Shown in pieces: positions 3,357 to 25,282 of a DNA stretch of 64,000 nucleotides. Position numbers and translations under genes: made by a program. Source of the DNA: Sphingobacterium sp. ML3W. GTDB lineage: Bacteria; Bacteroidota; Bacteroidia; Sphingobacteriales; Sphingobacteriaceae. Below the pieces are notes generated by a model. The model did no database searches and was not told where the DNA came from. It saw only the letters and a list, made by a program, of their open reading frames with translations. Within the stretch, counting starts at the first letter, position 1, and every line of letters begins with the position of its first letter. The DNA lies in contig NZ_CP107036.1 of the NCBI RefSeq assembly GCF_029542085.1, forward strand, positions 124,001 through 188,000, read 5' to 3'.

Positions 3357-5039
3357 ATGTCAGACGAGAAGATTATTTTTTCGATGGCGGGAGTCAACAA
3401 AATCTATCCGCCTCAAAAACAAGTTCTAAAAAATATCTATTTATCTTTTTTCTATGGTGCCAAGATTGGTGTGATCGGTTTGAACGGATCCGGAAAATCT
3501 TCATTATTGAAAATTATTGCGGGTTTGGATAAATCTTATCAGGGTGAAGTTGTGTTTTCTCCAGGTTACTCTGTGGGATATTTGGCACAGGAACCCCAAT
3601 TGGATCTCGAAAAGACCGTACTGGAAATTGTGCAGGAAGGTGTTGCTGAAATTACAGCAACCTTAAAAGAATACGAAGAAATCAATGAAAAATTTGGCTT
3701 GCCTGAGGTCTACGAAAATCCGGATGAAATGGATAGATTGCTAGCGAGACAAGGTGAATTGCAAGATAAAATTGATGCAACAAATGCTTGGGAAATCGAT
3801 TCTAAATTGGATAGAGCAATGGATGCATTGCGTTGTCCAGAACCTGATGCTAAAATTGCCAATTTGTCAGGTGGTGAACGCAGACGTGTAGCATTATGTC
3901 GCTTATTATTACAAGAACCAGATGTATTATTGCTTGATGAGCCGACTAACCACTTGGATGCAGAGTCTATTGACTGGTTAGAACAACACTTGAAACAGTA
4001 TAAAGGAACTGTCATTGCCGTAACCCACGACCGTTACTTCTTGGATAACGTCGCAGGATGGATCTTAGAACTTGATCGTGGTGAGGGAATTCCGTGGAAA
4101 GGAAACTATTCTTCGTGGTTAGATCAAAAAGCTAAACGTCTGGCACAAGAAGAAAAGCAAGAAACCAAACGTCAGAAAACTTTGGAGCGTGAGTTGGAAT
4201 GGGTACGTATGGCTCCAAAAGCCCGTCATGCTAAATCTAAAGCCCGTCTTCATAACTATGAAAAATTGGCGTCTGAGGAAACCAAAGAACGTGAAGAAAA
4301 ATTGGAGTTGTTTATTCCTCCAGGACCGCGCTTGGGTAACTCTGTTATTGAAGCAACAGATATTTCCAAATCCTATGGTGACCGTATCTTATTTGAAAAT
4401 TTAAGTTTCATGTTGCCTCCAGCCGGTATCGTTGGTATAATTGGGCCAAATGGTGCAGGTAAAACAACTTTATTCCGCTTGATCACAGGACAGGAAACGC
4501 CAGATACAGGTTCGTTCAAAGTAGGCGAGACGGTCAAATTGGGTTATGTCGATCAGATGCACCATGATCTTGATCCTGAAAAATCTGTTTGGGAAAATAT
4601 CACCGGTGGTAATGATAATATGATCTTAGGCAATCGCTCCGTAAATTCCAGAGCTTATGTCTCTAAATTTAACTTTAATGGTGCTGATCAACAAAAGAAA
4701 GTCGGTGTACTTTCTGGTGGAGAACGTAATCGCGTCCATTTGGCGATCACATTGAAAGAAGGCTCAAACGTACTTTTACTCGATGAGCCGACCAATGATA
4801 TTGACGTAAATACATTGCGCGCGTTAGAGGAAGGTTTGGAGAATTTCGGTGGTTGTGCTGTGGTGATTTCCCACGATAGATGGTTCTTGGACCGTATCTG
4901 TACGCATATTCTTGCGTTTGAAGGTGATTCTCAAGTGTATTTCTTTGAAGGTAACTATACTGAATATGAGGAGAACCGCAAGAAACGCTTGGGTGATGTG
5001 ACTCCACATCGTATTAAATACAAAAAATTGGTGAAATAA
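3357..5039 (+). CDS. ettA: Energy-dependent translational throttle protein EttA (ABC-F ATPase)
   Basis: This is a 560-residue cytoplasmic ABC-F protein with two ATPase domains and no membrane segments. In the first domain, Walker A is GLNGSGKS (41-48), the signature LSGGE is at 170-174, and Walker B and its catalytic acid are at LLLDEP (D194, E195). The second domain carries GPNGAGKT, LSGGERNRV and LLLDEPTND. The N-terminus (MAGVNKIYPPQKQVLKNI) is typical of EttA. In this family the charged linker between the two domains contacts the P-site tRNA, and EttA gates entry into elongation according to the ATP/ADP ratio. The next gene, a PAS histidine kinase, starts 2 bp after the stop codon, so the two are probably co-transcribed. 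Confidence 0.95.
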   Translation: MSDEKIIFSMAGVNKIYPPQKQVLKNIYLSFFYGAKIGVIGLNGSGKSSLLKIIAGLDKSYQGEVVFSPGYSVGYLAQEPQLDLEKTVLEIVQEGVAEITATLKEYEEINEKFGLPEVYENPDEMDRLLARQGELQDKIDATNAWEIDSKLDRAMDALRCPEPDAKIANLSGGERRRVALCRLLLQEPDVLLLDEPTNHLDAESIDWLEQHLKQYKGTVIAVTHDRYFLDNVAGWILELDRGEGIPWKGNYSSWLDQKAKRLAQEEKQETKRQKTLERELEWVRMAPKARHAKSKARLHNYEKLASEETKEREEKLELFIPPGPRLGNSVIEATDISKSYGDRILFENLSFMLPPAGIVGIIGPNGAGKTTLFRLITGQETPDTGSFKVGETVKLGYVDQMHHDLDPEKSVWENITGGNDNMILGNRSVNSRAYVSKFNFNGADQQKKVGVLSGGERNRVHLAITLKEGSNVLLLDEPTNDIDVNTLRALEEGLENFGGCAVVISHDRWFLDRICTHILAFEGDSQVYFFEGNYTEYEENRKKRLGDVTPHRIKYKKLVK

Positions 5040-5041
5040 CG

Positions 5042-6232
5042 ATGATCATGGAAGGCGGAAGGCTTCTGGCGGCCATAATAGACCACGCAATTGATGGAAT
5101 TATCACCATTGACAACAGGGGGAATGTGGAAAGCATTAACCCTGCTGCCTTAGAATTGTTTGGTTATAACGCCGAAGAAGTTATAGGACATAATGTTTCG
5201 ATGTTAATGCCTGAGCCTGATCGGGGGAATCACGATAATTATATCCATAATTATCAAACGACAGGTCATAAGAAAATTATCGGGATCGGACGGGAGGTGA
5301 TGGGATTAAAGAAGAATGGAGAAACATTTCCGTTCCGGCTTGCGGTCAGTGAAGTTTGGCTTAAAGATAAAAATATTTTTACAGGATTTATCCATGATCT
5401 CTCCCGTGAAAAGGCTGCTGAGGACATGCTAAAACAGCATGCAGCCGAATTGGAACATAAAGTCAGTGAGCGAACCCGTGATCTAATATCGATGGTTTCG
5501 GAACTGGAAAAAGCAAAGGCGGAGGTCTCTAAATCTTTGGAGAAAGAAATTGAACTTAACCAGCTTAAATCACGTTTTGTTTCTATGGCTTCACATGAGT
5601 TTCGCACACCTTTAAGTTCCGTTCAATTATCAGCTTCGTTGATCGAAAAATATGCGGATCGCCCCGATGATAAGGCGAGTATCATTAAACATACCAACAA
5701 GATTAAAGGTGCAGTGCAGCTCTTGACCAGTATTTTGAACGATTTTCTCTCATTGGAGAAATTGGAGGCGGGTATTGTAGTCATGAATAAGCAGTATATT
5801 AATTTGGTTGAACTGGCTGAGGAGATTACGGAGGAAATGCAATTGATCTGTAAAAAAAACCAGCATATTGTGTATCAGCATACAGGTGAGATCGGACATT
5901 TTTCTTTGGACCAGAATCTATTGAAAAATGCTTTGGTGAATTTGATTTCCAATGCAATCAAATACTCGGGCGAAGATACATTAATTGAATTTACAACCTG
6001 TATTGATGACGATGGCTGTTCGATTTCAGTCAAAGATAATGGAATCGGTATCCCCCAAGAGGACCAAGTGCATTTGTTTGAGCCTTTTTTCAGAGCCCAT
6101 AACACAGGGAATATTCCGGGTACGGGACTGGGGCTAAATATCGTGAAAAGATATATTGAACTTATGCAAGGTAAAATGGAGTTTGTATCGGAGGTACATA
6201 AAGGAACATCATTTAAGGTCAGTTTTGAATAG
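5042..6232 (+). CDS. Soluble PAS-domain histidine kinase with a FixL-like heme pocket
   Basis: This encodes 396 residues with no membrane segment. The PAS domain (about 10-120) follows rhizobial FixL closely. It has LMPEPDR, then His64 at the place of the FixL proximal heme ligand (Bradyrhizobium His200), and IIGIGR with Arg84 at the place of the oxygen-contacting Arg220. It also has GETFPFRL and FTGFIHDLS. The equivalent of Arg206 is Asn70. A coiled linker (120-175) leads to a HisKA H-box, SMASHEFRTP, with phospho-acceptor His185. The ATPase domain has an N box (LISNAIKYSG), DNGIGI, LFEPFF and GTGLGL. I infer a heme-based oxygen (or NO) sensor; heme binding is unproven. It starts 2 bp after ettA, and a second in-frame ATG lies 6 bp into the gene. 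The partner is probably the receiver-CRP protein that follows. Confidence 0.85.
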   Translation: MIMEGGRLLAAIIDHAIDGIITIDNRGNVESINPAALELFGYNAEEVIGHNVSMLMPEPDRGNHDNYIHNYQTTGHKKIIGIGREVMGLKKNGETFPFRLAVSEVWLKDKNIFTGFIHDLSREKAAEDMLKQHAAELEHKVSERTRDLISMVSELEKAKAEVSKSLEKEIELNQLKSRFVSMASHEFRTPLSSVQLSASLIEKYADRPDDKASIIKHTNKIKGAVQLLTSILNDFLSLEKLEAGIVVMNKQYINLVELAEEITEEMQLICKKNQHIVYQHTGEIGHFSLDQNLLKNALVNLISNAIKYSGEDTLIEFTTCIDDDGCSISVKDNGIGIPQEDQVHLFEPFFRAHNTGNIPGTGLGLNIVKRYIELMQGKMEFVSEVHKGTSFKVSFE

Positions 6233-6336
6233 GTGTTGGAGTCGCTTTATCGGTGGCAGAAAAATCGAACAGCTGAACTTATGAAATAAATGCTTGGCAT
6301 TCAGGAGGCATTGAAGGTAAATAGGAATGAATAATT

Positions 6337-7413
6337 ATGTTAGGAATGAAAAATAAAAAGACAATTCTAATTATTGAGGATAATATTGACATTAGAGAGG
6401 GGACAACTGAGATTTTGGAGCTGACAGGACGGTATGATGTTATTACAGCGGAGAATGGTCGGATAGGAGTTGATTTGGCAACCCGGCATATTCCTGATTT
6501 GATTCTCTGTGACATCATGATGCCCGAATTGGATGGATATGGTGTACTATTTATGTTAAGCAAAATAGAAAGCACTTCAAAAATTCCTTTTATTTTTCTG
6601 ACCGCCAAAGCCGAACGTGCGGATATGCGCAAGGCAATGGAGATGGGGGCTGATGATTACCTGACCAAACCTTTTGACGATGTGGAGCTGATGAATGCAA
6701 TTGAGGTTCGTCTAAAAAAGCATGAGCAGTTATCCGCTAATACACCTGAAGACGCTGATCTAAATCTGAGTGAAGAGGAGCAAGTTTTATTGCTACAGGA
6801 ATTACTCGCGAACTCGCGTGTGAAAACGGTAAAGAAGAAACAGTCAATCTTTGAGAAAGACGATTCGCCTACTTATGTCTATTATGTCAAATCAGGGCAG
6901 ATTCGAAGCTTTAAATCATATAAAGATGGACGCGAATTGTCGACTGGAATTTATATCGAAGGGAATTATTTTGCTTACGCTTCGGTGCTGTTGAATGAGA
7001 ACTATGAAGATTATGCAGAAGCTGTTGAACCGAGCGAAGTTATTTTAATTCCGAAGGATGCTTTTTTGGAGCTCTTATGGAAAAAACCGGCTATAGCAAG
7101 CAAGTTTATCAAATTGCTTTCTGTCGACCTTCGTGAAAAAGAGGAACAACTATTGGGCTTTGCATACCATTCTGTACGTAAACGTGTGGCCAATGCTCTG
7201 ATCAGTGTAGCCGAAAAAAGCGGAATTAATATCAATGAGGTCAATGCCTGTACAATTGATATTACCAGAGATGGAATTGCTTCGATAGCCGGTACGGCAA
7301 ATGAAACTGTTTCACGTATGCTTTCTGATTTTAAAGAGGAAAAGCTGATCTCGAAAGAAAAAGGAAAGATTTTTATCAATTCTATCAAAAAATTGAGAGA
7401 CGTAAAACAGTAA
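6337..7413 (+). CDS. Response regulator: receiver domain fused to CRP/FNR-type transcription factor
   Basis: This encodes 358 residues. The N-terminal receiver (about 8-125) has the acidic pair E14/D15, phospho-acceptor D59 (LCDIMMPELDG), T89 and K111 (YLTKPF). A cyclic-nucleotide-binding-like beta-roll follows (about 160-270) but lacks the CRP-type phosphate-binding cassette, so cAMP binding is unlikely. The C-terminal Crp winged helix (about 285-350) has a recognition helix with E323-T-V-S326-R327, the ExxSR pattern of FNR/FixK proteins. The arrangement resembles FixJ and FixK merged into one protein: phosphorylation by the upstream heme-PAS kinase would set DNA binding. It lies about 100 bp after the kinase and ends at a strong terminator. 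Likely targets are the palindromes at 7516, 22923 and 23052; this is an inference. Confidence 0.88.
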   Translation: MLGMKNKKTILIIEDNIDIREGTTEILELTGRYDVITAENGRIGVDLATRHIPDLILCDIMMPELDGYGVLFMLSKIESTSKIPFIFLTAKAERADMRKAMEMGADDYLTKPFDDVELMNAIEVRLKKHEQLSANTPEDADLNLSEEEQVLLLQELLANSRVKTVKKKQSIFEKDDSPTYVYYVKSGQIRSFKSYKDGRELSTGIYIEGNYFAYASVLLNENYEDYAEAVEPSEVILIPKDAFLELLWKKPAIASKFIKLLSVDLREKEEQLLGFAYHSVRKRVANALISVAEKSGININEVNACTIDITRDGIASIAGTANETVSRMLSDFKEEKLISKEKGKIFINSIKKLRDVKQ

Positions 7414-7515: not shown

Positions 7516-7535
7516 ATTGTGATATATATCATTGT
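7516..7535 (+). promoter_or_regulatory. Candidate CRP/FNR-family operator upstream of the hemN operon
   Basis: The core GTGA-TATATA-TCAT contains the perfect 12-mer palindrome TGATATATATCA. The centre (7525.5) lies 59.5 bp upstream of the end of the -7 box at 7578-7585. The two palindromes upstream of ccoNO share the GTGA-N6-TCA core, and the nearer of them has almost the same spacing to its -7 box. Confidence 0.6.
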
Positions 7536-7577
7536 CAGGTATGGTCTTGTATCATGTTTTTGGGCTGAGCTATAAGC

Positions 7578-7585
7578 TAATTTTG
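7578..7585 (+). promoter_or_regulatory. -7 box of the hemN operon
   Basis: TAATTTTG matches TAnnTTTG exactly, 43 bp before the ATG at 7628. There is no good -33 element, as expected for a promoter that needs an activator. Confidence 0.55.
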
Positions 7586-7627: not shown

Positions 7628-8047
7628 ATGAAAGTAGTTGTATATAATGTGAGGTCATTTGAAAAGGAGTTTTGGGCATTGGCCAATGCAAAACAGCATG
7701 ATCTCACCTTGATTTCAAACGGATTAAATGCCGAAACGCAAAATTATGCGCGCGGGAAGGATGCGATTGTCATCTCTGGAGGAGATATTTTGGACGATAA
7801 AATGCTACTTAATTTGAAGGAATTAGGGATCAATAAGATCATGACAAGAAGTAAAGAAACATCCCATATTGATCTGGTGAAGGCAGGCTCCCTGCGTATT
7901 CAGATTGCGAATGCACCTTTTGAGGATCAAAGCCCAAAAGGACTGGCAGAACAGACTATTCGGAATCTCAATCTCTGGGGGATGGAAAAATGTGTTGGTA
8001 AAGCATGTTGTTGTTTAAATGACTGCGCAAAAAATAATTTTCAATGA
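7628..8047 (+). CDS. Stand-alone D-2-hydroxyacid dehydrogenase N-terminal-like domain with C-terminal Cys cluster
   Basis: This encodes 139 residues. The sequence follows the N-terminal half of D-lactate dehydrogenase (MKVVVYNVRSFEKEF, then a DAIVISGGD segment, IDLVKAGSLRIQIANAP and AEQTIRN). The NAD-binding Rossmann domain and the catalytic Arg, Glu and His are absent, so it cannot be a working dehydrogenase. It ends in a dense cysteine patch: Cys122, Cys127-128-129 and Cys133. The patch could bind a metal or cluster or act in redox sensing; this is inference. The stop codon overlaps the hemN start (ATGA), so translation is coupled and the gene belongs to the hemN-ccoI-ccoS operon. A TTG 18 bp upstream is in frame, but I prefer the ATG at 7628. 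Confidence 0.7.
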   Translation: MKVVVYNVRSFEKEFWALANAKQHDLTLISNGLNAETQNYARGKDAIVISGGDILDDKMLLNLKELGINKIMTRSKETSHIDLVKAGSLRIQIANAPFEDQSPKGLAEQTIRNLNLWGMEKCVGKACCCLNDCAKNNFQ

Positions 8048-9414
8048 GTACACAAGACAAGACTATGGCGGAGCTGGTGCAGAAATATAATGTTGCAGCA
8101 CCACGGTACACCAGTTATCCAACTGTTCCATTTTGGGATGAGAAAACATTTTCTACTGATGCTTGGACGGATCAGGTATACCTTACTTTCAAACAGTCAA
8201 AAGATAGGGGGTTAAGTCTGTATATACATCTTCCTTTTTGCGAGAGCTTATGCACATACTGTGGCTGTAATACGCGTATCACAAAAAATCATCAGGTTGA
8301 ACTGCCTTATATTGCTGCCCTCCTAAAGGAGTGGGAGATGTATCGGACTGTTTTCAAAGGTGCAAAACCGCTCGTGTCAGAAATACATTTGGGTGGTGGT
8401 ACACCGACATTTTTTCAACCTGAGAACCTGAAATTGTTGATTGAGGGAATTCTTGAACATGTCGATGTCACAGCAGATCGCTCTTTTTCATTTGAAGCGC
8501 ACCCTGCTAATACCACAACCGAGCACCTACAGATTCTTTTCAACCTAGGCTTCCGTCGTCTCAGCTTAGGGATACAGGATTTTGATCCTTTGGTGCAATT
8601 TATGATCAATAGACAGCAGACCTTCGAGGAAGTAGAAGCGGTGATGTTGAATGCCAGAGAGATCGGTTTTGTATCCATTAATTTCGATTTGATCTACGGA
8701 TTGCCTAAGCAGACCCAAGCATCTGTACAGGATACGATTGAAAAATCTATGCTGCTCAAGCCAGATCGTATATCTTTTTATAGCTATGCCCATGTCCCCT
8801 GGTTAAAACCCGGGCAGCGGCATTATACCGAGGCGGATCTGCCGAAAGGTACTGCCAAACTAGCACTTTATAATCTCGGGAAAAAGCTGATCTTGGCACA
8901 AGGTTACGCAGATATCGGGATGGATCATTTTGCGAAAAAAGATGATGAACTTTATTTGGCTTTCCAAGAAGGACGCTTGCACCGTAATTTCATGGGGTAT
9001 GCGGATCGGTTTAACCCCTTATTAATTGGCATTGGTGTGTCCTCGATCAGCGACGCTTGGGGTGGTTTTGCGCAAAATGTAAAAACAGTTAAAGAATATC
9101 ATAAGCTGATCGCATCAGGTGTCTTGCCTGTAGTGAAAGGGCATATACTTAATGCAGAAGATCTGGTCATAAGACGTTATATCCTTGATATGATGTGTAA
9201 AGGTAAAGTACAATTGGATCCTACATCGGATTTAACTGAGCAGATTAAAGATGAATTGTCAACATTGGTCCAAGACGGCTTAGTCAGCATAGAAGGAGAT
9301 CTGATTCGATGCACTACTATCGGACGTTCATTTCTACGGAATATCTGTATGGCTTTTGATCAACGTTTTTTAAAGCTGCGTACAAAAACGCAGTTATTTA
9401 GTGAAGCAATTTAA
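8044..9414 (+). CDS. hemN: Oxygen-independent coproporphyrinogen III oxidase HemN
   Basis: This 456-residue radical-SAM enzyme converts coproporphyrinogen III to protoporphyrinogen IX without oxygen. The iron-sulfur motif is CESLCTYCGC (Cys66, Cys70, Cys73, Cys75). The CxxxCxxCxC form, with the fourth cysteine, marks true HemN rather than HemW. LGGGTPTFF and the C-terminal HemN region are present, and the length is normal. It overlaps the preceding gene by 4 bp and is followed by ccoI after 8 bp. Placement with cbb3 assembly genes behind a CRP/FNR-like site fits induction at low oxygen to supply heme for the oxidase. Confidence 0.96.
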   Translation: MSTQDKTMAELVQKYNVAAPRYTSYPTVPFWDEKTFSTDAWTDQVYLTFKQSKDRGLSLYIHLPFCESLCTYCGCNTRITKNHQVELPYIAALLKEWEMYRTVFKGAKPLVSEIHLGGGTPTFFQPENLKLLIEGILEHVDVTADRSFSFEAHPANTTTEHLQILFNLGFRRLSLGIQDFDPLVQFMINRQQTFEEVEAVMLNAREIGFVSINFDLIYGLPKQTQASVQDTIEKSMLLKPDRISFYSYAHVPWLKPGQRHYTEADLPKGTAKLALYNLGKKLILAQGYADIGMDHFAKKDDELYLAFQEGRLHRNFMGYADRFNPLLIGIGVSSISDAWGGFAQNVKTVKEYHKLIASGVLPVVKGHILNAEDLVIRRYILDMMCKGKVQLDPTSDLTEQIKDELSTLVQDGLVSIEGDLIRCTTIGRSFLRNICMAFDQRFLKLRTKTQLFSEAI

Positions 9415-9422
9415 TTGGGGAT

Positions 9423-11816
9423 ATGGCGGTAACAAAAGAAAAAGTACAACAAATCGAGAAATGTTTCCACTGTGGAGACACAATCGAAGAAACAGGTTAC
9501 CATCTCGATGAGCATGATTTTTGCTGCCTCGGATGCCAAACTGTCTATCAGGTTTTGCAGAATGGGGGGATGCAACAATACTACCGTTATAATCAGCATC
9601 CTGGAAAATCCAATAAAGAAAAACAAGCGGATTTTTCGTATTTGGATGAGCCACAGATTGCGGCTAAATTAGTCGATTTTAAGGATGATAAGATGACTAT
9701 CATTACCTTTTATATTCCTGCTATCCATTGTAGCTCGTGTATTTGGCTGTTGGAAAATCTCTATAAATTAAATCCAAACGTGTTACAGTCCCGCGTGGAC
9801 TTTATGAAAAAACAGGCCAGTATCACTTTTAATCATACTTTACTTCCGCTCAAAGATTTAGTATATCTATTAGCTAATATTGGTTACGATCCCAAAATTA
9901 CACTGCAGGATGTCGTTAAAGAGGGAAACAAGAATAACCTGAATCCCTTGGTTGCCAAGATTGCAGTAGCAGGATTCTGTTTCGGAAATTCGATGCTATT
10001 TAGTTTCCCGGACTACTTTGGTATGGGAGAATTTGAAAAGGAGTATGCGAGTTTTTTCGGTTATATCAATTTAGCTTTTGGATTGCCAGTTTTGTTGTAT
10101 TGTGCTTCGGATTACTTTAAGTCTGCGTATGTCAGTTTGAAACAAAAAAGGTTGAATCTGGATGTCCCTTTGGCCTTGGGTATTTTGGTCCTGTTTTTAC
10201 GTTCGGCTTTCGAAGTAATAACGCAGACTGGAGCTGGTTTTACAGATACTTTATGTAGTTTGGTGTTCTTTATTCTGATCGGAAAATGGGTGCAGCAGCG
10301 GACCTATTATCATATTTCTTTTGAAAGGGATTATCGGAGCTATTTCCCCGTTGCGGTAACTGTACTTACTGAAGATGGGGACAAACCTGTGCAATTGGCC
10401 GATATTAATATCGGTGATCGTATACTTGTTCGTAACAATGAGATTATCCCGGCAGATGCCATATTATTAAAAGGCGATGCGGGGATTGACTTTAGTTTTG
10501 TGACCGGAGAATCAAGTCCTGTGAGTAAAACCTTAGGGGAAATTATTTACGCCGGGGGACGTCAGACGGGCGAGGCGATCGAACTGGAGGTTATAAAGCC
10601 GATTTCACAGTCGTATCTGACCAAATTATGGAATAATGAAAATTATAAAGATTACGATAAGCATTTTCAGACTTTTGTGAACTTTATAAGTAAATATTTT
10701 ACTGTTGTTTTATTGGCGATCGCTTTTTTCGCAGCACTATATTGGGCTGTGGACGGAAGCGCCAATAGGGCTTGGGGAGCTTTTACGGCAGTGCTGATTA
10801 TAGCGTGTCCTTGTGCATTGGCGTTGAGCTCTCCTTTTACCCTATCTGCGGCATTAAGTATTTTCGATAGAAACAAGTTCTATGTTAAAAATACAGCGGC
10901 AATCGAGCAGATGGCAACAATAGATACACTCGTTTTCGATAAAACAGGAACTATTTCGTCGCCTAAAGCAACCTCAATTTATTTTGAAGGCTCACTTAAT
11001 ACAAATGAAAAAACGTTGGTATATGCAGTATGTCGTAATTCTAGTCACCCCTTGAGCCGAGAGATTGTGAAATGGCTGGATGTGTGTTCTGATGTTCCGG
11101 TCCGAGATTTTAAAGAGTTGCCAGGAAAAGGGATGGAGGCGATGGTTGAGGGGCTAGTTGTCAAAATCGGTAGTGCCAGTTTTTTGAATATAGGAAATAT
11201 CAAAACTGACAGATCTGTCGTATTTATACGTATCGACGAAGAGCTGAAAGGATATTTTACGATGGAACAGGCTTGGAGAGATGGCTTGCCGGCTTTGATC
11301 GAAAATTTCACACCTCGTTATGATCTTCACCTGATATCAGGGGATAATGACCGACGCATGGATGCGCTAAAATTGATTTTTCCTTCGGAAGCTTGCTTGA
11401 TGTTTAATCAGTCTCCAATGGAAAAACTGGGGCGCATTCAAAAATTTCAGCAGGCGGGAAAACATGTCTGTATGATCGGGGATGGATTGAATGATGCGGG
11501 AGCATTGCGTAAAGCAGATTTAGGGATTGCTGTCAGTGATGATATCAATAACTTTTCGCCTGGATGTGATGCTATTTTAGACGGTGAGTCATTTTCAAAA
11601 TTATCGGATTTCTTTGCTTTCAGCAAAGATGCTGTAAAGGTAATCCATATGAGCTTTGGGATATCCTTGCTCTATAATATAATCGGGTTGAGTTTTGCTA
11701 TTCAAGGGATTATGTCGCCCTTATTTGCTGCAATCTTGATGCCGATAAGTACAGTTACAATTATCTCATTTACCAGCTTAATGACAAGATGGTATGCAAA
11801 ACGTCATAAACTATAG
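9423..11816 (+). CDS. ccoI: Copper-exporting P1B-type ATPase CcoI/FixI for cbb3 oxidase assembly
   Basis: This is a 797-residue membrane P-type ATPase. The N-terminal Cys-rich module has CFHCG (Cys14, Cys17) and CCLGC (Cys34, Cys35, Cys38). It is followed by an HMA domain whose motif is CSSC (103-106). The transmembrane metal site is CPC (462-464). The phosphorylation site is Asp506 in DKTGT, and the hinge is GDGLND (686-691). The Cys-rich N-terminal module plus HMA domain is typical of FixI/CcoI, which delivers Cu to the CuB centre of the cbb3 oxidase. It follows hemN by 8 bp, and ccoS begins 5 bp after its stop. Confidence 0.93.
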   Translation: MAVTKEKVQQIEKCFHCGDTIEETGYHLDEHDFCCLGCQTVYQVLQNGGMQQYYRYNQHPGKSNKEKQADFSYLDEPQIAAKLVDFKDDKMTIITFYIPAIHCSSCIWLLENLYKLNPNVLQSRVDFMKKQASITFNHTLLPLKDLVYLLANIGYDPKITLQDVVKEGNKNNLNPLVAKIAVAGFCFGNSMLFSFPDYFGMGEFEKEYASFFGYINLAFGLPVLLYCASDYFKSAYVSLKQKRLNLDVPLALGILVLFLRSAFEVITQTGAGFTDTLCSLVFFILIGKWVQQRTYYHISFERDYRSYFPVAVTVLTEDGDKPVQLADINIGDRILVRNNEIIPADAILLKGDAGIDFSFVTGESSPVSKTLGEIIYAGGRQTGEAIELEVIKPISQSYLTKLWNNENYKDYDKHFQTFVNFISKYFTVVLLAIAFFAALYWAVDGSANRAWGAFTAVLIIACPCALALSSPFTLSAALSIFDRNKFYVKNTAAIEQMATIDTLVFDKTGTISSPKATSIYFEGSLNTNEKTLVYAVCRNSSHPLSREIVKWLDVCSDVPVRDFKELPGKGMEAMVEGLVVKIGSASFLNIGNIKTDRSVVFIRIDEELKGYFTMEQAWRDGLPALIENFTPRYDLHLISGDNDRRMDALKLIFPSEACLMFNQSPMEKLGRIQKFQQAGKHVCMIGDGLNDAGALRKADLGIAVSDDINNFSPGCDAILDGESFSKLSDFFAFSKDAVKVIHMSFGISLLYNIIGLSFAIQGIMSPLFAAILMPISTVTIISFTSLMTRWYAKRHKL

Positions 11817-11821
11817 TTGTT

Positions 11822-11983
11822 ATGGAAATCATGTATATTCTAATCGGTTGTAGTGTATTATTAGCTTTGGTATTTTTATGTGCTTTCTTTTGGGCGAATA
11901 AGTCAGGACAGCATGATGATACCTATACCCCTTCAGTAAGAATTTTGTTTGATGATGACACAGCGGAAGAAGTGGAAAAATAA
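11822..11983 (+). CDS. ccoS: cbb3-type cytochrome oxidase assembly protein CcoS
   Basis: This encodes 53 residues, found by translating directly after ccoI. One transmembrane helix (about 3-24, YILIGCSVLLALVFLCAFFW) is followed by KSGQHDDTYTPSVRILFDD, which matches the CcoS/FixS signature of a single helix and a KSGQYDD-like tail. CcoS is needed for cofactor insertion into CcoN. A second in-frame ATG at codon 4 is an alternative start. It is the last gene of the hemN operon; the structural oxidase genes lie 11 kb away, at 23144. Confidence 0.9.
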   Translation: MEIMYILIGCSVLLALVFLCAFFWANKSGQHDDTYTPSVRILFDDDTAEEVEK

Positions 11984-11992
11984 ATTGTAATA

Positions 11993-12008
11993 ACTAAAAC
12001 GTTATCGT
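11993..12008 (+). promoter_or_regulatory. LacI/PurR-type operator
   Basis: ACTAAAACGTTATCGT is a near-palindrome centred on CG and resembles LacI-family operators (13 of 16 positions equal the E. coli PurR consensus as I remember it). It lies between ccoS and the uronate genes. The nearest candidate regulator is the LacI-family gene at 14217-15242. Confidence 0.5.
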
Positions 12009-12089
12009 AATTAAATCAATTACTTTTTTTTGTAATTAAGGTTATTATCAATAAAATTGGGGATAAATACCAATTTGAAATAGAAATAC

Positions 12090-12908
12090 ATGAGTAATAA
12101 TCCATTTTCATTAAAAGATAAGATTGTCGTGATCACAGGTGGTACGGGGATTCTTGGTGAGGCATTTGTGGAGGCGTTGGCTGAGGCAGGGGCAAAAGTA
12201 GCTATTCTTGGGCGTAACGAGCAGATCGGAAAAGAGCGTGTACAGCAAGTAGAATCTCTCGGAGGGGAGGCCATATTTGTAGAGGTTGATATCATGGACG
12301 AACAGGATGTCATTAGAGCAAAGGATGAGATCCTTGATAAATGGGGGCGAATAGACGCTCTGGTGAACGCTGTCGGTGGAAATATTCCAGGCGCGACAAT
12401 AGGTGCTGACCAAGATCTATTTGCAAGTAATATTCAAGACACGATTAAAGCGATCGAGCTAAATCTCTATGGAACAATTATCCCAACACATATTATTGGT
12501 CGCGTAATTGCAGAAAGCGGAAAAGGAGCCATCGTAAATATCTCCTCCTTGACAGCAAACCGGCCTTTCACTCGGGTATTGGGATATACAGTTGCCAAAC
12601 ATGGTATTGACGGCTATACAAAATGGATGGCAACGGAACTTGCGCAGCGTTATGGTGATCAAGTTCGCGTCAATGCAATTGCGCCGGGTGTCTTCTTGAC
12701 CAAACAAAACAAAAATCTATTGATAAATCCAGACGGTAGCTATAGTGAACGTACCAAGCGGATACTTAGCGGAACACCTTATAACCGACTGGGAGATCCA
12801 CGGGAATTAAAAGGAACTTTAATCTATCTATTGAGCGATGCCTCAGCTTTTGTAACTGGTGAGACAGTCTTTGTAGATGGTGGTTTTAATGCATGGTGCG
12901 GCGTTTAA
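12090..12908 (+). CDS. SDR-family D-mannonate oxidoreductase (fructuronate reductase)
   Basis: This 272-residue short-chain dehydrogenase has the nucleotide-binding motif TGGTGILG (16-23) and an NVSS-like active-site Ser in NISSLTANRP. The catalytic pair is Tyr166/Lys170 (YTVAK), and the end is FVDGGFNAWCGV. Members next to uxuA interconvert D-fructuronate and D-mannonate and replace the classical long-chain UxuB; the assignment rests on this neighbourhood and on overall resemblance. uxuA starts 12 bp after the stop, so the two form an operon. A LacI-type operator lies about 80 bp before the start codon. Confidence 0.85.
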   Translation: MSNNPFSLKDKIVVITGGTGILGEAFVEALAEAGAKVAILGRNEQIGKERVQQVESLGGEAIFVEVDIMDEQDVIRAKDEILDKWGRIDALVNAVGGNIPGATIGADQDLFASNIQDTIKAIELNLYGTIIPTHIIGRVIAESGKGAIVNISSLTANRPFTRVLGYTVAKHGIDGYTKWMATELAQRYGDQVRVNAIAPGVFLTKQNKNLLINPDGSYSERTKRILSGTPYNRLGDPRELKGTLIYLLSDASAFVTGETVFVDGGFNAWCGV

Positions 12909-12920
12909 CGAGATTTTGAG

Positions 12921-14081
12921 ATGAATAAATTAGAACAAACATGGCGTTGGTATGGTCCCAACGATCCAGTATCCTTGCAGGATGTTAAACAGGCAGGTGC
13001 AACGGGCATCGTTACGGCTCTACATCATATTCCCCATGGCGAGGTTTGGCCTCTTGCCGATATTCAGGAGCGAAAACGTATTATCGAAGATGCAGGTTTG
13101 GTTTGGTCCGTGGTAGAGAGTGTAACGGTCCATGAAGAAATTAAAACAAAAGGACCTCGAGTTGATGAATATATCGCTAAGTATAACCAGACACTAGCTA
13201 ATCTTGCGGAATGCGGTATTAAAACAGTCTGTTACAATTTTATGCCAGTACTGGATTGGACCAGAACGCAACTGGATTTGGTGATGGCAGATGGCTCAAA
13301 GGCTCTTTATTTTGACTGGATTGACCTGGCACTTTTTGATATCTTTATTTTAGAACGAGCTGATGCGGAAAAAGACTATTCAGAAAATATTGTCAAAAGA
13401 GCAACGAAGCGCTTTGGTGAAATTTCCGAACAACAAAAAGATAGCTTGGCCGATGTCGTTCTGATGGGAATTCCGGGAGAAAAAAATGTGGAATTGGATG
13501 CTTTAAAAGCCAGTATTGATACGTATAAACATATTGGAAGGGATGGCTTGCGTAGCAATCTAGTCTACTTTCTAAACGGAATTTCTGCGGTATGTGAGGC
13601 AAACGGCATCTGTATGACGATCCATCCCGATGATCCACCTTATCCGATTTTAGGTTTGCCACGTATTGCTAGCAATGGTGAAGATCTTGGCTATATCTTG
13701 AGTGAAGTGCCTCAACAATTCAATGGTATCTGTTTTTGTACAGGTTCTTTAGGAGCTAGCCAGACCAATGATTTACCGGCGATATTAGAGCAGGTAAAGG
13801 CGCGGGTAAACTTTGTCCATTTGCGGAATGTTAAGAAAGATACCATTGGTAGTTTCTATGAAGCAGATCATTTGGATGGGGATGTGAATATGCATAAAAT
13901 TATGCAAATTTTGGTTGCTGAAAATCAGTTGCGATCTACTGCTATTCCATTTAGACCTGATCATGGACATCAGATGTTGGACGATCTTAACAAGGTGACA
14001 AACCCTGGTTATTCTGCTATTGGCCGATTAAGAGGTTTAGCTGAATTACGAGGATTGGAATATGGAATTGCTGGTGAGTAA
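12921..14081 (+). CDS. uxuA: Mannonate dehydratase UxuA
   Basis: This encodes 386 residues. The start (EQTWRWYGPNDPVSLQDVKQAG) and the segments HHIPHGEVW, WSVVESV, CYNFMPVLDWTR and MTIHPDDPPYPILGLPRI are hallmarks of the xylose-isomerase-like UxuA family. The enzyme dehydrates D-mannonate to 2-keto-3-deoxygluconate in hexuronate breakdown, using a divalent metal held by His, Cys and Asp residues. It is 12 bp downstream of the SDR oxidoreductase and ends before a bidirectional terminator. No uxaC, kdgK or eda lies in the window, so the rest of the pathway must be encoded elsewhere. Confidence 0.95.
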   Translation: MNKLEQTWRWYGPNDPVSLQDVKQAGATGIVTALHHIPHGEVWPLADIQERKRIIEDAGLVWSVVESVTVHEEIKTKGPRVDEYIAKYNQTLANLAECGIKTVCYNFMPVLDWTRTQLDLVMADGSKALYFDWIDLALFDIFILERADAEKDYSENIVKRATKRFGEISEQQKDSLADVVLMGIPGEKNVELDALKASIDTYKHIGRDGLRSNLVYFLNGISAVCEANGICMTIHPDDPPYPILGLPRIASNGEDLGYILSEVPQQFNGICFCTGSLGASQTNDLPAILEQVKARVNFVHLRNVKKDTIGSFYEADHLDGDVNMHKIMQILVAENQLRSTAIPFRPDHGHQMLDDLNKVTNPGYSAIGRLRGLAELRGLEYGIAGE

Positions 14082-14133
14082 TCTATTGTAATAATTGTAG
14101 TGATTACTTTCGCTGATGAGAAGGTTATAGTAT

Positions 14134-14186
14134 AAAAAAACAGTCAGGAGATAATAGCGCAAGCGATATTTTCTGACTGTTTTTTA
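14134..14186. terminator. Bidirectional terminator between uxuA and the lacI-type gene
   Basis: The arms AAAAAAACAGTCAG and CTGACTGTTTTTT enclose a 25-base loop that holds a small GCGCAAGCG hairpin. The A and T runs make it work for both convergent genes. Confidence 0.85.
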
Positions 14187-14216
14187 TTATTTTCCTTCGA
14201 TGTAAAAGGGAAGGGG

Positions 14217-15242
14217 TTATAACGAAGATTTTCTTACGACAAGCTGTGTCGGAAGTTCTATGGTTTCAAATTCGTGAATTGGTCTTGTCTGATTAATTGT
14301 GTCAATCAGTTTTTTTGTTGCTATTTCACCGATTTCAGTTGCAGGTTGTACGACAGTTGACAGTGCAGGGTTTAATGAGGCTGCAATTTGTGTATTAGAA
14401 AATCCGATGACAGCAACTTCCGTCGGAACTTTGATCTGAAGTTCGGCTAAAATGCCCAATGTCCTTGTTGTGATAACATCCGTTGCGCCGAAAATTGCAT
14501 CGATTTTTTTGCCATCAATATATTCTTTAATTATAATTTCTTTTATACTATTGTCTAAATCAACCGTGCTGTTAAAGCTACATTCGATGTAATGTCTTTC
14601 ATTAAAAGGTATGCCCGCATCAGAGAGAGCTGCTTTAAAACCACTTAAACGTTCTTCGGCAACACCTAGGTTTTTTCCTGTGATATGTAAAATATTCCGT
14701 TTTCCTTGTTGAATAAGGTGTTGGGTTGCATTGTATGCTCCTTGAAAATTATTGACTCCGACTTTAAATGTGTCCAATTTGTGATTGATGCGGTCAAAGA
14801 TAACAACCGGTATTTTAGCTTTAATGAGGTCTTTAAGCTCTTCAATATTTGACCCAGAAGACACGGGAGCGATCATTAGCCCATCTATGCCTCGCATTCT
14901 TAATACATCTATACAATTCTTTTCTACGCGTTCATCCTCTCTACTTTGCATAAAGATAACATCGTAGATGGTTTGTTGGGAAGCGATCTGAATTCCATCG
15001 AGAATTTGAGATACGAATGTATTGCTGATATTGGAAACAATGACTCCAATGGTATTTGATTTTCCGATTTTTAAACTTCGTGCCAACTTATTGGGATGGA
15101 AATTATGCTTTTTAGCGTACTCCTGAACCATTTTTTTAGTTGCTTCACTGATTTCGTAGCTGTCTGATAGTGCTTTGGAAACTGTCGAAACAGAAATGTT
15201 GAGTTCTAAGGCTATATCTTTCAGGGTAGTTCTGCTCATCAC
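14217..15242 (-). CDS. LacI-family transcriptional regulator
   Basis: This encodes 341 residues. The N-terminal helix-turn-helix (TTLKDIALELNISVSTVSKAL, about 5-25) and hinge helix (NKLARSLK) are classical LacI. The rest is a periplasmic-binding-like effector domain (IGVIVSNISNTFVSQIL; ILHITGKNL; DAIFGATD; VAVIGFSN). It is convergent with the uxu pair, which suggests it responds to a uronate intermediate and acts at the operator at 11993. Effector and target are inferred from position only. MSR at codon 2 is an alternative start. Confidence 0.9.
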   Translation of the reverse strand: MMSRTTLKDIALELNISVSTVSKALSDSYEISEATKKMVQEYAKKHNFHPNKLARSLKIGKSNTIGVIVSNISNTFVSQILDGIQIASQQTIYDVIFMQSREDERVEKNCIDVLRMRGIDGLMIAPVSSGSNIEELKDLIKAKIPVVIFDRINHKLDTFKVGVNNFQGAYNATQHLIQQGKRNILHITGKNLGVAEERLSGFKAALSDAGIPFNERHYIECSFNSTVDLDNSIKEIIIKEYIDGKKIDAIFGATDVITTRTLGILAELQIKVPTEVAVIGFSNTQIAASLNPALSTVVQPATEIGEIATKKLIDTINQTRPIHEFETIELPTQLVVRKSSL

Positions 15243-15564
15243 TTTGGAGGTTGTTATAAGAAGATAAATCTACATAAAAAAAAAGACAAACCAGCTGTTT
15301 TTGATAATTATCAAAGGTTTGCGTTGTAACAATAATATAGTCCGGTTTATAGCATTTTTATGTTTAACAAATTCAAATTTTTGAATCCTTTTACTTTTAA
15401 AAACTGCATTTCCAGCCAATGAGTCCGAGTGTTTAGCCTATTTTAATGTTTTTTTCGCTGCGGTTCGAGACCTGTTCGGAACTGAATCGGGATTTAAAGG
15501 GGGCTAAGTGTAGATGTTGGCATGGTTCGACCAGACTGGTACTGTTGTTCTAGCGTGTTTAACT

Positions 15565-15586
15565 CGGACTCACCACGGACTCACCA
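15565..15586. repeat. Tandem 11-bp direct repeat
   Basis: CGGACTCACCA occurs twice in tandem. The overlapping segment ACTCGGACTCA (15562-15572) is an exact inverted copy of TGAGTCCGAGT at 15420-15430. Confidence 0.7.
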
Positions 15587-15608
15587 CGGAAAGAATACGG
15601 ATTTACCC

Positions 15609-15644
15609 CGAAGCTGTCCCGACTGAGATACGAAGCTGTCCCGA
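15609..15644. repeat. 14-bp direct repeat pair
   Basis: CGAAGCTGTCCCGA occurs at 15609-15622 and again at 15631-15644, with 8 bp between copies. Confidence 0.75.
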
Positions 15645-15892
15645 GGTTTATCCCTTGTGCAGCCGATTGAGCCGGGAGCTACACAAGGAATATTATATAT
15701 TAACCTGCTGGTTCTATCGTTTGGTCCTTGGCTGGGGATGAGACTGGTTTAATACGAGGGGAGTGAAACCCCAAGTATTCCCTTTGATTCAAAATAAAAG
15801 GAATCTCCTGGTATTGCCCATTTTTGGTTGGATCCCCTAACGGCCTTTTTTTGATCCGTGTTCGGATATCGCTCGTCCCCGCTTCGCCGATG

Positions 15893-15975
15893 CTCGGGAT
15901 TTTCCTATAGATTCTCTATCCATCCCCTATACAAACGATAGGTAATGGATGGATAAACGGTAGAGAAAAGCCGAG
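15893..15975. repeat. Long imperfect hairpin
   Basis: Nested complementary arms lie in order: CTCGG/CCGAG (15893/15971), TTCTCT/AGAGAA (15912/15962), TATCCATCC/GGATGGATA (15917/15947) and CCTAT/ATAGG (15926/15938), around a 7-base loop. Such nesting suggests a structured RNA or a DNA cruciform; no T run follows, so it is not a simple terminator. Confidence 0.6.
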
Positions 15976-16107
15976 GGAGATAACAGGAAGGTGCGAACAC
16001 AGCCCGGAAGCAGGATGCTTTTGCCCGTAGGGATACCAATTTTGGTATTTTTTAGATATAAGTCAAATATTAAAGTAGCAATAACCTACTATTAAGTTAG
16101 AATACAG

Positions 16108-16155
16108 TTAGGTATTGGTTAGGTTTTATCTAAACTATACCTAACCAATACCTAA
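16108..16155. repeat. 17-bp perfect inverted repeat rich in TTAGG/CCTAA
   Basis: TTAGGTATTGGTTAGGT (16108-16124) and its exact reverse complement (16139-16155) flank a 14-base loop. Further CCTAA copies follow up to 16180. Confidence 0.8.
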
Positions 16156-16674: not shown

Positions 16675-16706
16675 TTGGAAGTTTGTTAGTAAACTCCCTA
16701 TCTTTG
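16675..16706 (+). promoter_or_regulatory. rRNA operon promoter P1
   Basis: A -33 TTG (16675-16677), 21 bp spacer and -7 TATCTTTG (16699-16706) followed by C match the Bacteroidota vegetative promoter. Confidence 0.75.
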
Positions 16707-16827
16707 CACCACTCCGCAAGGGAGGGACGGTTACTCCGGAAGGGGATACCACTGAAAAAAGAAGGGTCTGACGGGAGTTAGGCGCGGAAATCGGAAAAAA
16801 GGAAGAGAAAAAAAACTTCAAAAGTTT

Positions 16828-17103: not shown

Positions 17104-18632
<1,529 letters not shown>

Positions 18633-19002: not shown

Positions 19003-19086
19003 CGTCTCCGGGGATATGCATCACAGATACATATCATATAAACCGGAAAAAGAGTTCTTTGACATATTGAAAGAGAAAAAAAATTA

Positions 19087-22922: not shown

Positions 22923-22942
22923 AAAGTGACAACGGTCACTTT
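22923..22942 (+). promoter_or_regulatory. Distal CRP/FNR-family operator of ccoNO
   Basis: AAAGTGA-N6-TCACTTT is a perfect 7+7 bp inverted repeat with the 6-bp spacing of CRP/FNR sites. It has the same arms as the site at 23052; the centres are 129 bp apart. Confidence 0.75.
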
Positions 22943-23051: not shown

Positions 23052-23071
23052 AAAGTGACGCACATCACTTT
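23052..23071 (+). promoter_or_regulatory. Proximal CRP/FNR-family operator of ccoNO
   Basis: AAAGTGA-CGCACA-TCACTTT is a perfect inverted repeat. The centre (23061.5) is 58.5 bp upstream of the end of the -7 box, a class-I-like activator position and nearly the same as at the hemN operon. Confidence 0.8.
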
Positions 23072-23112
23072 TGTACGCACTCTCTATCATTAGATTGTCA
23101 TAGAATGCTGCT

Positions 23113-23120
23113 TACTTTTG
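23113..23120 (+). promoter_or_regulatory. -7 box of ccoNO
   Basis: TACTTTTG matches TAnnTTTG, 24 bp before the start codon. The -33 region is poor, in keeping with an activated promoter. Confidence 0.6.
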
Positions 23121-23143: not shown

Positions 23144-25282
23144 ATGCAGTTAGAGCAATTTAATTACGACAATAGAATTGTCAGAAATTTCGGAATCGCT
23201 ACCATTATTTGGGGGATAGTTGGTATGACTATAGGATTGCTTGTGGCAACGCAACTCGTCTGGCCCCAAATGAACTTCGGATTGCAATATACAACATTTG
23301 GCCGTGTACGTCCAGTACATACAAACGCTGTGATATTCGCTTTCGTGGGTAACGGTATTTTTATGGGAGTCTATTACTCCTTGCAGCGGGTGCTTAAAGC
23401 AAGAATGTTCAGTGATGTCCTGAGTAAGCTTCATTTCTGGGGCTGGCAATTGATCATTGTTGCTTCGGCTATCACACTTCCGTTGGGGCTGACCTCAAGC
23501 CATGAGTATGCTGAAATGGAGTGGCCAATTGATATTGCAATTACCCTGATCTGGGTTGTATTTGGAATCAATATGTTTGGCACAATTATCAAACGACGCG
23601 AACGTCACATGTATGTCGCAGTTTGGTTCTATATCGCTACGTTTGTTACTGTAGCAGTCTTGCATATCGTTAACTCCATTCAATTGCCTGTAGCCGGATG
23701 GAAAAGCTATTATGTATACAAAGGTGTTCAGGATGCATTGGTACAATGGTGGTATGGCCATAATGCAGTGGCCTTTTTCCTAACGACTCCTTACCTGGGG
23801 ATGATGTATTATTTTTTGCCAAAAATGGCCAACCGTCCCGTTTATTCCTATAAATTGAGTATTCTGCACTTTTGGTCACTGATCTTTATCTATATCTGGG
23901 CAGGACCTCATCATTTGTTATATACAGCATTACCAAGCTGGGTACAGTCCTTAGGAGTTGTATTCTCGATTATGTTGATTGCACCAAGCTGGGGTGGTAT
24001 GATAAACGGTCTGTTAACGCTGCGTGGTGCCTGGGACAAGGTGCGGACAGAACCGATGCTGAAATTTATGGTCGTAGCACTGACCTGTTATGGTATGGCA
24101 ACCTTTGAAGGTCCAATGCTGTCTTTAAAGCAAGTCAATGCGATCGCACACTTTACAGATTGGATCGTTGCACACGTACACGTAGGAGCATTAGGATGGA
24201 ACGGATTTATGACCTTCGGTATCCTTTATTGGTTGATCCCACGTATTTATAAAACAGAACTATATTCTAAAAAGCTAGCATCGACACACTTTTGGATTGG
24301 TACATTGGGGATTTTATTTTATGCGATTCCAATGTACTGGGCAGCAGTTGTGCAAGGCTTGATGTGGAAAGAGTTTACACCGGAAGGCGTATTGAAGTAT
24401 CCGAACTTCTTAGCAACAACATTGGAAATCTTACCAATGCATATGATGAGAGCATTAGGTGGGGCACTATACTTATCTGGGGTTTTCTTGATGACATTCA
24501 ACTTGATTAAGACCATGAAGCAAGGGAAACTTTTGGCAAATGAACCTGCTGAAGCTCCTGCTTTATTACCGGTTCAGGTTAGTGAGCAATCTCAACATCG
24601 CCGTCTTGAACGTAAGCCCATTTTGTTTATGGTATTGGCACTTATTGCAATTCTAATCGGTGGTATGGTTGAAATGGTTCCAACATTTACCATTTCAAAA
24701 AATGTACCGACAATCGCAAGTGTACAGCCTTATACAGCGTTGGAACTGCAAGGTCGGGATCTCTATGTAAGGGAAGGTTGTGTGAATTGTCATACACAGA
24801 CTATTCGGCCATTTAGATCGGAGACTGCCCGTTATGGCGAGTATAGCAAGGCGGGTGAATATGTTTACGATACACCATTCTTATGGGGATCGAAAAGAAC
24901 TGGACCTGATTTGCATCGTATTGGTTCTAAATATCCTAATAAGTGGCATTTTGATCATCTTTTAGATCCAACCATTACCTCTCCTGGAAGTATTATGCCA
25001 TCATATCCTTGGCTAATCGACCAAAAGCTGGATAATACGATTCTAAAAGATAAAATGAAAGCCCTTCGCAAATTGGGAATCCCCTATACGGATGTGGCAA
25101 TAGCGAATGCAGAACAGGATCTGAACAAACAAGCACAGAAAATTGCGGATGATCTGAAACAAAATCAAGTCAATGTGTTAGCCGATCGTGAAATTATAGC
25201 GGTAATAGCTTATCTACAACGATTGGGAACAGATATAAAAGCAGCTCCGAAAGTGGCTGAGGATGTTAACGTAAATCAATAG
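23144..25282 (+). CDS. ccoNO: cbb3-type cytochrome c oxidase, fused subunits I and II (CcoN-CcoO)
   Basis: This encodes 712 residues. Residues 1 to about 480 form the multi-helix CcoN core of a heme-copper oxidase (WWYGHNAVAFFLTTPYLG, WAGPHHLLYTALP, HVHVGALGWNG carry heme and CuB ligands). A basic linker (about 485-500) and one more helix lead into CcoO, which holds a c-type heme site CVNCH (546-550) and the segments RPFRSETARYG and RTGPDLHRIG. The N-O fusion is known in Bacteroidota. The enzyme reduces oxygen with high affinity at the inner membrane. It heads the ccoNO-Q-P-G-H operon and lies behind two CRP/FNR-like palindromes. Confidence 0.97.
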   Translation: MQLEQFNYDNRIVRNFGIATIIWGIVGMTIGLLVATQLVWPQMNFGLQYTTFGRVRPVHTNAVIFAFVGNGIFMGVYYSLQRVLKARMFSDVLSKLHFWGWQLIIVASAITLPLGLTSSHEYAEMEWPIDIAITLIWVVFGINMFGTIIKRRERHMYVAVWFYIATFVTVAVLHIVNSIQLPVAGWKSYYVYKGVQDALVQWWYGHNAVAFFLTTPYLGMMYYFLPKMANRPVYSYKLSILHFWSLIFIYIWAGPHHLLYTALPSWVQSLGVVFSIMLIAPSWGGMINGLLTLRGAWDKVRTEPMLKFMVVALTCYGMATFEGPMLSLKQVNAIAHFTDWIVAHVHVGALGWNGFMTFGILYWLIPRIYKTELYSKKLASTHFWIGTLGILFYAIPMYWAAVVQGLMWKEFTPEGVLKYPNFLATTLEILPMHMMRALGGALYLSGVFLMTFNLIKTMKQGKLLANEPAEAPALLPVQVSEQSQHRRLERKPILFMVLALIAILIGGMVEMVPTFTISKNVPTIASVQPYTALELQGRDLYVREGCVNCHTQTIRPFRSETARYGEYSKAGEYVYDTPFLWGSKRTGPDLHRIGSKYPNKWHFDHLLDPTITSPGSIMPSYPWLIDQKLDNTILKDKMKALRKLGIPYTDVAIANAEQDLNKQAQKIADDLKQNQVNVLADREIIAVIAYLQRLGTDIKAAPKVAEDVNVNQ

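Follow-up and report, generated by a model that had tools for sequence, protein, structure and literature searches.

The genome of Sphingobacterium sp. ML3W is a single contig of 6.55 Mb, and in the window analysed here, a stretch of 64,000 nucleotides of that contig, two genes lying 104 bp apart on the same strand encode a histidine kinase and a response regulator (Table 1). They adjoin hemN, ccoI and ccoS at 8044-11983, the cbb3 assembly genes named in an earlier sequence-only description of the locus (the original prediction), and the same window also holds the cbb3 oxidase genes themselves (ccoNO, ccoP, ccoG and a fixH-like gene, 23144-28217), which that description did not mention. The pair had been described as a two-gene, FixL-like low-oxygen switch, and the conserved pairing and a conserved operator support this as the best reading of the sequences. 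We think it probable that a kinase with a FixL-type PAS domain and a fusion of a receiver with an FNR-like module switch on two operons, hemN-ccoI-ccoS and ccoNO-ccoP-ccoG, at low oxygen. At the level of sequence, this predicted switch is supported by the domain anatomy, the heme-pocket residues, the pairing of the genes and an operator whose spacing to the promoter box is conserved.

The PAS domain of the kinase aligns without gaps with FixL of Sinorhizobium meliloti (54 of 112 residues identical) and of Bradyrhizobium japonicum (50 of 115); its search against the PDB returned the FixL entries 1d06 (E 7.8e-29) and 1dp6 (E 2.2e-28), and it is the sole match in the genome at 1e-12. In the B. 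japonicum numbering, where we take His200 to be the heme ligand and Arg206, His214 and Arg220 to be the other residues of interest, His64 falls on His200, Arg84 on Arg220, Asn70 on Arg206 and Lys78 on His214 (S. meliloti FixL has Arg, not His, at this last place), and the stretch IIGIGR is kept, aligned with neighbours of the heme-pocket residues. Thus, the placing of His64, Arg84 and IIGIGR on the FixL heme pocket, with Asn in the place of Arg206, was correctly predicted. Conservation was counted in 84 homologous kinases and fusions, drawn from the window, the loci of a family set and a 52-locus set that overlap in species. Of the kinases, 80 keep His64 and 78 keep Arg84, and at position 70 there are 67 with Asn and 9 with Arg; the change from Arg206 to Asn therefore characterises the lineage and not just this one protein. 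His185 is present in 84/84. The FixL likeness is confined to the sensor, and the kinase is not an orthologue of rhizobial FixL, because its score with the NCBIfam FixL model NF041777 (166 bits) is below the cut-off of 850 and its core is HK853-like. In the predicted kinase model His64 lies within helix 60-74, and no FixL PAS appeared among the matches listed in the fold search of this model, which were taken up by the kinase core. Both proteins look soluble, as had been proposed, because their maximal 19-residue mean hydropathies (1.23 for the kinase and 1.33 for the regulator) are too low for a membrane span.

Pfam domains confirm the description of the second gene as a complete receiver with Asp59 joined to a CRP-type DNA-binding module, and Asp59 is kept in 83 of the 84 fusions. 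FixJ is a receiver with a helix-turn-helix output of the LuxR/NarL type; no LuxR-type domain was found in the fusion by Pfam at a threshold of 0.01, and its output consists of cNMP_binding and HTH_Crp_2 domains, hence it is not of the FixJ type. Among solved structures, the DNA-binding half is nearest by sequence to FNR (best E 7.8e-16, Aliivibrio fischeri according to the entry titles), and the match begins at FNR residue 56, past the cluster-binding region, which lies before that residue. The cysteine cluster of FNR was not found in the fusion, the only common cysteines being Cys58 (83/84), which is located in the receiver, and Cys305 (44/84). The recognition helix keeps E323 and R327 in 83 sequences each, S326 in 76 and N322 in 64, while residue 225, assigned by eye to the place of the arginine that contacts the cAMP phosphate in CRP, is acidic in 82 (D225 here). 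The fusion stays below the cut-offs of the FNR model NF008365 (74 bits, cut-off 228) and of the FixK model NF050806 (69.3 bits, cut-off 300), and with its receiver fused it is not a stand-alone regulator. Its predicted structure (mean predicted local distance difference test score 87.5, predicted template modelling score 0.46) matches CRP/FNR chains across about 200 residues, and no chain described with both domains was among the 50 matches listed in the fold search. These results point to an FNR-like origin of the output half, which this analysis adds. Of the likeness to FixL, FixJ and FixK drawn originally, the FixL-like sensor and the one-protein regulator stand, but the kinase is no FixL orthologue and the output is nearest to FNR. 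Judged from their acceptor residues, His185 and Asp59, and from their paired genes, the two proteins form a predicted two-component system.

The candidate operator consists of the palindrome GTGA-N6-TCAC and, 22 bp further downstream, a weaker version of it; it is found at the promoters of both ccoNO and the hemN-ccoI-ccoS operon, which begins with a short gene like D-lactate dehydrogenase (LDH). The motif was first noticed by eye in the window and afterwards tested in relatives, which are themselves interrelated. Its longer form AAGTGA-N6-TCACTT occurs exactly twice in the genome (22924 and 23053), both times 5' of ccoNO and 129 bp apart, and the full pattern of operator plus promoter box likewise has just two occurrences, one at the hemN operon (7519) and one at ccoNO (23055). 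When promoters of the window and of fetched relatives were scored, with dinucleotide shuffles giving the expectation, scores of at least 15 were reached by 30/32 ccoNO promoters (1.04 expected) and 18/27 promoters of the LDH-like/hemN operon (0.82 expected); upstream of the kinase (1/32), the fusion (1/32), ccoP (0/31) and hemN itself (0/28) such scores stayed near the shuffle level, and the regions upstream of the fusion had a mean score of 11.81 compared with 11.45 +- 0.18 for shuffles. Because the operator was not seen 5' of the kinase or the fusion in the family set, no autoregulation is predicted there; in a scan of nine distant loci with a looser pattern, two (L197 and L199) had a site ahead of the operon containing the pair.

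The distance from operator to promoter box is nearly invariant. A TAnnTTT(G/A) box starts 51.5 or 52.5 bp from the site centre in 32/32 ccoNO promoters and in 23 of the 24 LDH-like promoters scoring at least 14, a count that omits 3 of 27 promoters because they scored below 14 or lay too close to an end, and the spacing is fixed in 41/42 promoters of the 52-locus set, a count given for the hemN-ccoI-ccoS operon. The second TGA-N6-TCA site has a single peak, at +22 bp: of its 6 letters, on average 3.62 match at ccoNO and 5.04 at the hemN operon, with means of 0.38-2.62 letters at the other offsets from 14 to 35 bp. In 10 genomes the combined pattern occurred 23 times, 16 of them at the two promoters, and the reversed control occurred twice. 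A position of -41.5 is the classical one for activation by FNR and CRP. A study on Flavobacterium psychrophilum (PMC9723704) places the promoter box at -12 to -5, and the site centres would therefore lie at about -63.5 (strong) and -41.5 (weak). A conserved operator is thus found at both the oxidase and the hemN promoters, as would be expected of a low-oxygen cbb3 regulon. Three classical FNR boxes, TTGA-N6-TCAA, were also located in the window (2048, 15301 and 24488), none of them at a target promoter. Extra copies of operator plus box were seen in relatives 5' of a CRP-family gene (L142 in G064), of an Rrf2-like gene with a truncated-globin-like gene behind it (L143 in G016; labels by eye in both cases) and of two other genes (L144, and L122 in G052).

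Conserved pairing across Sphingobacteriaceae, which had been put forward for checking, was confirmed in a set of 151 genomes of the family. With PAS domains counted at 48% identity or more, the FixL-like PAS is present in 107/151 genomes, the fusion accompanies it in 107/107, and at 109/113 PAS loci the fusion lies at most 3.5 kb downstream on the same strand. Seen from the fusion, 109 of 137 loci stand behind a FixL-like PAS kinase, 4 behind a PAS kinase of 28-31% identity and 24 have no upstream PAS match; G029 and G058 have the fusion without a FixL-like PAS. The four low-identity loci (G057:C9, G077:C5, G094:C26 and G029:C1:3318663) suggest that the fusion has been coupled to other sensors. 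The 52-locus set, comprising Sphingobacterium, Parapedobacter, Olivibacter, Rhinopithecimicrobium, Flavobacterium, Dyadobacter and metagenome-assembled genomes and sharing species with the family set, has a kinase match 5' of the fusion in 52/52 loci; six of them (L192, L193, L194, L196, L200 and L203) have a sensor in which His64 or Arg84 is missing or the PAS is not aligned. A survey of 345 genomes across the phylum found the fusion in 48 (at 1e-60) and the PAS in 64 (at 1e-22); outside the family the numbers were 41 and 57, with both in 11 genomes and adjacent in 9 of these by hand count. The pair is therefore not phylum-wide. Within the family, 99 genomes have both kinase and ccoN, 8 the kinase only, 11 ccoN only and 33 neither (Fisher p 1.6e-16, for related genomes and uncorrected for phylogeny).

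The operator also follows the kinase. With the orientation of the compared ccoN loci set by tblastn, ccoN promoters scoring at least 14 were found in 18/19 cases from kinase genomes and in 0/11 from genomes without the kinase. Seven of these 11 kinase-less genomes were fetched with flanks, one of them (L207) a short contig, and in five of the seven a gene matching the DNA-binding half of the fusion (32-35% identity) stands directly 5' of ccoI (L204, L205, L206, L209 and L210). Like FNR, the two FNR-like proteins inspected (L204 and L206) carry a central cysteine as well as C-x2-C-x8-C at the N-terminus, and ATGAYNNNNRTCAT lies 5' of ccoI in 3/3 scanned FNR-like loci. Because the FNR-like gene, its cysteines and the site are found there, the locus appears to hold one of two alternatives in this family, a heme kinase with its receiver-FNR fusion or an FNR that bears cysteines; the comparison covers five loci and is not a reconstructed history.

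The operator could instead belong to another CRP/FNR-type regulator, with the pair only adjoining the cbb3 genes and controlling something else. The genome encodes two further HTH_Crp_2 proteins above the cut-off, L114 and L115, plus six weaker matches, and L114 has N-terminal cysteines and is matched in 64/151 family genomes. However, L114, the one of these followed across genomes, is unmatched at 1e-30 in seven operator-bearing genomes (G016, G064, G096, G107, G117, G127 and G147) and does occur in three that lack the operator (G004, G046 and G058). The fusion tracks the operator better than L114 does, and we consider this explanation unlikely. We are still less inclined to believe that the pair controls the cbb3 genes while its PAS domain senses nitric oxide, carbon monoxide or redox state, or binds no heme. 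The ligand is unreadable from the sequence, Asn70 and Lys78 are not the residues of B. japonicum FixL, and variant sensors occupy this place in other lineages (6/84), but His64, Arg84 and IIGIGR are kept, S. meliloti FixL also lacks a His at the position of Lys78, and the targets hemN and cbb3 are oxygen-linked genes. That the fusion represses the cbb3 and hemN operons and is released at low oxygen seems very improbable to us: the direction of control is likewise unreadable, and the distal palindrome at ccoNO might suit a repressor, but if the box covers -12 to -5, in line with PMC9723704, the paired sites would take activator positions and leave the box and the start free.

Several observations weigh against the low-oxygen switch of kinase and fusion that we prefer. 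On the sensor side, His64 or Arg84 is missing in 6/84 kinases, loop 80-82 of the PAS is modelled with low confidence, and Arg206 and His214, which contact the heme propionates in FixL, are both changed. On the operator side, the assignment to the fusion is by co-occurrence, L062 has the pair and no site at ccoN, the 11 kinase-less ccoN genomes are confined to three genera, and the kinase-less G029 and G058 carry a homologous fusion, with another PAS partner or none detected, and no operator at ccoN. Furthermore, 8/107 kinase genomes have no ccoN match above the cut-off. Seven of these eight were scanned with a looser pattern (G148 was left out): the operator was found after the fusion, before a full-length D-lactate dehydrogenase, in 3/7 and elsewhere in 1/7, and none was found near the pair in 3/7. 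At a guess, genes for fermentation and heme may have come under the control of this switch first.

If kinase and fusion act as we propose, heme and oxygen would be bound at His64 and Arg84 of the PAS domain, and oxygen would turn the kinase off by analogy with FixL. Once oxygen became scarce, its release from the heme would let the kinase autophosphorylate at His185, and the phosphate would pass to Asp59 of the fusion, where it would drive dimerisation of the FNR-like module. Dimers would then occupy the tandem sites at about -63.5 and -41.5 and recruit RNA polymerase to the hemN-ccoI-ccoS and ccoNOPG operons, so that the cell would step up heme synthesis that needs no oxygen, delivery of copper and its high-affinity oxidase at the same time. 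In this scheme the receiver would stand in for the iron-sulfur (Fe-S) cluster of FNR, and the FixJ-FixK cascade of rhizobia would be run in one protein. We lean, with less assurance, towards the fuller picture of a one-step FixL switch in which a receiver replaced the Fe-S sensor of FNR, tandem dimers act on two promoters, and the heme switch and a cysteine-bearing FNR alternate over TGA-N6-TCA.

The order kinase, fusion, LDH-like gene, hemN, ccoI, ccoS, ccoNO and ccoP is common to many genera. In other genera ccoNO lies close behind ccoS, unlike in this genome, where the interval (11984-23143) holds genes for a mannonate oxidoreductase and a mannonate dehydratase (hexuronate genes), a LacI-type regulator and a complete ribosomal RNA operon (16S-tRNA-tRNA-23S-5S, 17104-22372). 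Upstream, ettA, encoding the ABC-F protein EttA (3357-5042; TIGR03719 above cut-off), stops 2 bases short of the start of the kinase gene. Loci of Sphingobacterium and Parapedobacter keep this arrangement, and the kinase may be expressed by read-through from ettA. The LDH-like gene, labelled like ccoI from family matches plus context, encodes a 139-amino-acid remnant of D-lactate dehydrogenase without the NAD-binding half. A C-terminal C-x(2-6)-C-x-C-x(2-4)-C is present in 61/65 short forms, and full-length homologues of 330-346 amino acids make up 6/71 in the sets compared (homologues lie at 3695-4711 in L197, 2051-3064 in L199 and 8509-9513 in L216). It looks like a repurposed fragment, perhaps a metal-binding one.

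Table 1 Genes, domains and putative regulatory sites of the kinase-fusion locus and the cbb3 genes (window coordinates)
Feature	Position	Strand	Details
Histidine kinase open reading frame	5042..6232	+	396 amino acids
Kinase PAS domain	5066-5401	+	residues 9-120; Pfam domain search
Predicted heme pocket	5231..5293	+	His64 5231-5233, Asn70 5249-5251, Arg84 5291-5293; ungapped FixL alignment, conservation
Kinase HisKA, phospho-acceptor His185	5594-5596	+	followed by HATPase_c
Response regulator open reading frame	6337..7413	+	358 amino acids
Regulator receiver	6364-6705	+	residues 10-123; Asp59 6511-6513; Response_reg
Regulator cNMP_binding fold	6823-7077	+	residues 163-247
Regulator HTH_Crp_2	7180-7401	+	residues 282-355
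Recognition-helix residues N-E-T-V-S-R	7300..7317	+	residues 322-327; conservation in 84 homologues
Putative operator site 1, LDH-like/hemN/ccoI/ccoS operon	7518..7533	+	TGTGATATATATCATT; predicted binding by the fusion
Putative operator site 2, hemN operon	7542..7553	+	weak copy; centre 22 bp 3' of site 1
-7 promoter box, hemN operon	7578..7585	+	TAATTTTG
Short D-lactate-dehydrogenase-like gene	7628..8047	+	first in hemN operon; C-terminal cysteine motif
hemN, oxygen-independent coproporphyrinogen III oxidase	8044..9414	+	TIGR00538 432.7 bits, cut-off 325
ccoI-like copper-type P-type ATPase	9423..11816	+	named from family matches and context
ccoS (FixS), cbb3 assembly protein	11822..11983	+	TIGR00847 above cut-off; PF03597
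Distal perfect palindrome 5' of ccoNO	22924..22941	+	AAGTGA-N6-TCACTT
Proximal palindrome, putative operator site 1 of ccoNO	23053..23070	+	
Putative weak operator site 2 of ccoNO	23078..23089	+	22 bp downstream of site 1
-7 promoter box, ccoNO	23113..23120	+	TACTTTTG
ccoNO, fused cbb3 oxidase subunits I and II	23144..25282	+	TIGR00780, TIGR00781 above cut-off
ccoP	25485-26378	+	FixP_N; TIGR00782 below cut-off (110.7 vs 180)
ccoG	26394-27782	+	TIGR02745 above cut-off
FixH family gene	27795-28217	+	PF05751

The closest known counterpart is the rhizobial cascade. In Alphaproteobacteria, according to PMC4999443, oxygen inactivates FixL, and FixK, without an Fe-S cluster, controls cco and hemN; PMC7888657 describes hFixL-FxkR-FixK as acting likewise on fixNOQP at 1% oxygen. 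The Sphingobacterium pair shares with these systems a FixL-type PAS with heme-ligand His and distal Arg and, as predicted targets, cco and hemN under the control of an Fe-S-free regulator of the CRP/FNR type. It differs in having one regulator for two, with the receiver fused to an FNR-like module and no FixJ-type helix-turn-helix, and in its HK853-like kinase core, the Asn for Arg206, Bacteroidota promoters and predicted tandem GTGA-N6-TCAC sites. With FNR the fusion shares the DNA-binding half (E about 1e-15), the E..SR recognition residues, a weak site at about -41.5 and likely the same targets; however, it has a receiver and a predicted heme kinase in place of the FNR-type cysteine cluster, and its half-sites are GTGA, not TTGA, with no TTGA-N6-TCAA at these promoters. 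The FNR-like regulators adjacent to ccoI (L204, L205, L206, L209 and L210) occupy the same locus and have the TGA-N6-TCA core in the three scanned, but they are one-component proteins with cysteines (L204 and L206) and ATGA instead of GTGA half-sites. CRP has the same fold, and GTGA-N6-TCAC resembles its half-site spacing, but the fusion carries a receiver and an acidic residue 225 at the place assigned by eye to the cAMP-phosphate arginine.

A search of the open-library literature returned no report of a FixL-type regulator of cbb3 oxidase in Bacteroidota and no FixL-like kinase with a receiver-CRP fusion in that phylum, including in the parts available of PMC4999443 and PMC9239204. The F. 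psychrophilum transcriptome shows strong induction of cbb3 at low oxygen, and neither Crp nor Fnr is mentioned in the main text (PMC9723704). Beyond what was originally proposed, this analysis adds a likely operator, a predicted two-promoter regulon, an FNR-like origin of the output and an alternative FNR-like regulator. At this locus the regulator, the operator and the two-promoter regulon would all be accessible to experiment. If the proposed switch is real, the FixL-FixJ-FixK logic can be compressed to the point where one DNA-binding response regulator suffices. In Caulobacterales, according to PMC4999443, FnrN was lost and FixLJ-FixK was acquired to act on the FnrN sites already present, a change parallel to the alternation of heme kinase and FNR-like regulator here. 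For the Sphingobacteriaceae, the locus would be a natural comparison of heme-kinase with FNR-like control at one place in close relatives and, if the reading holds, a natural swap of oxygen-sensor chemistry over a common TGA-N6-TCA core.

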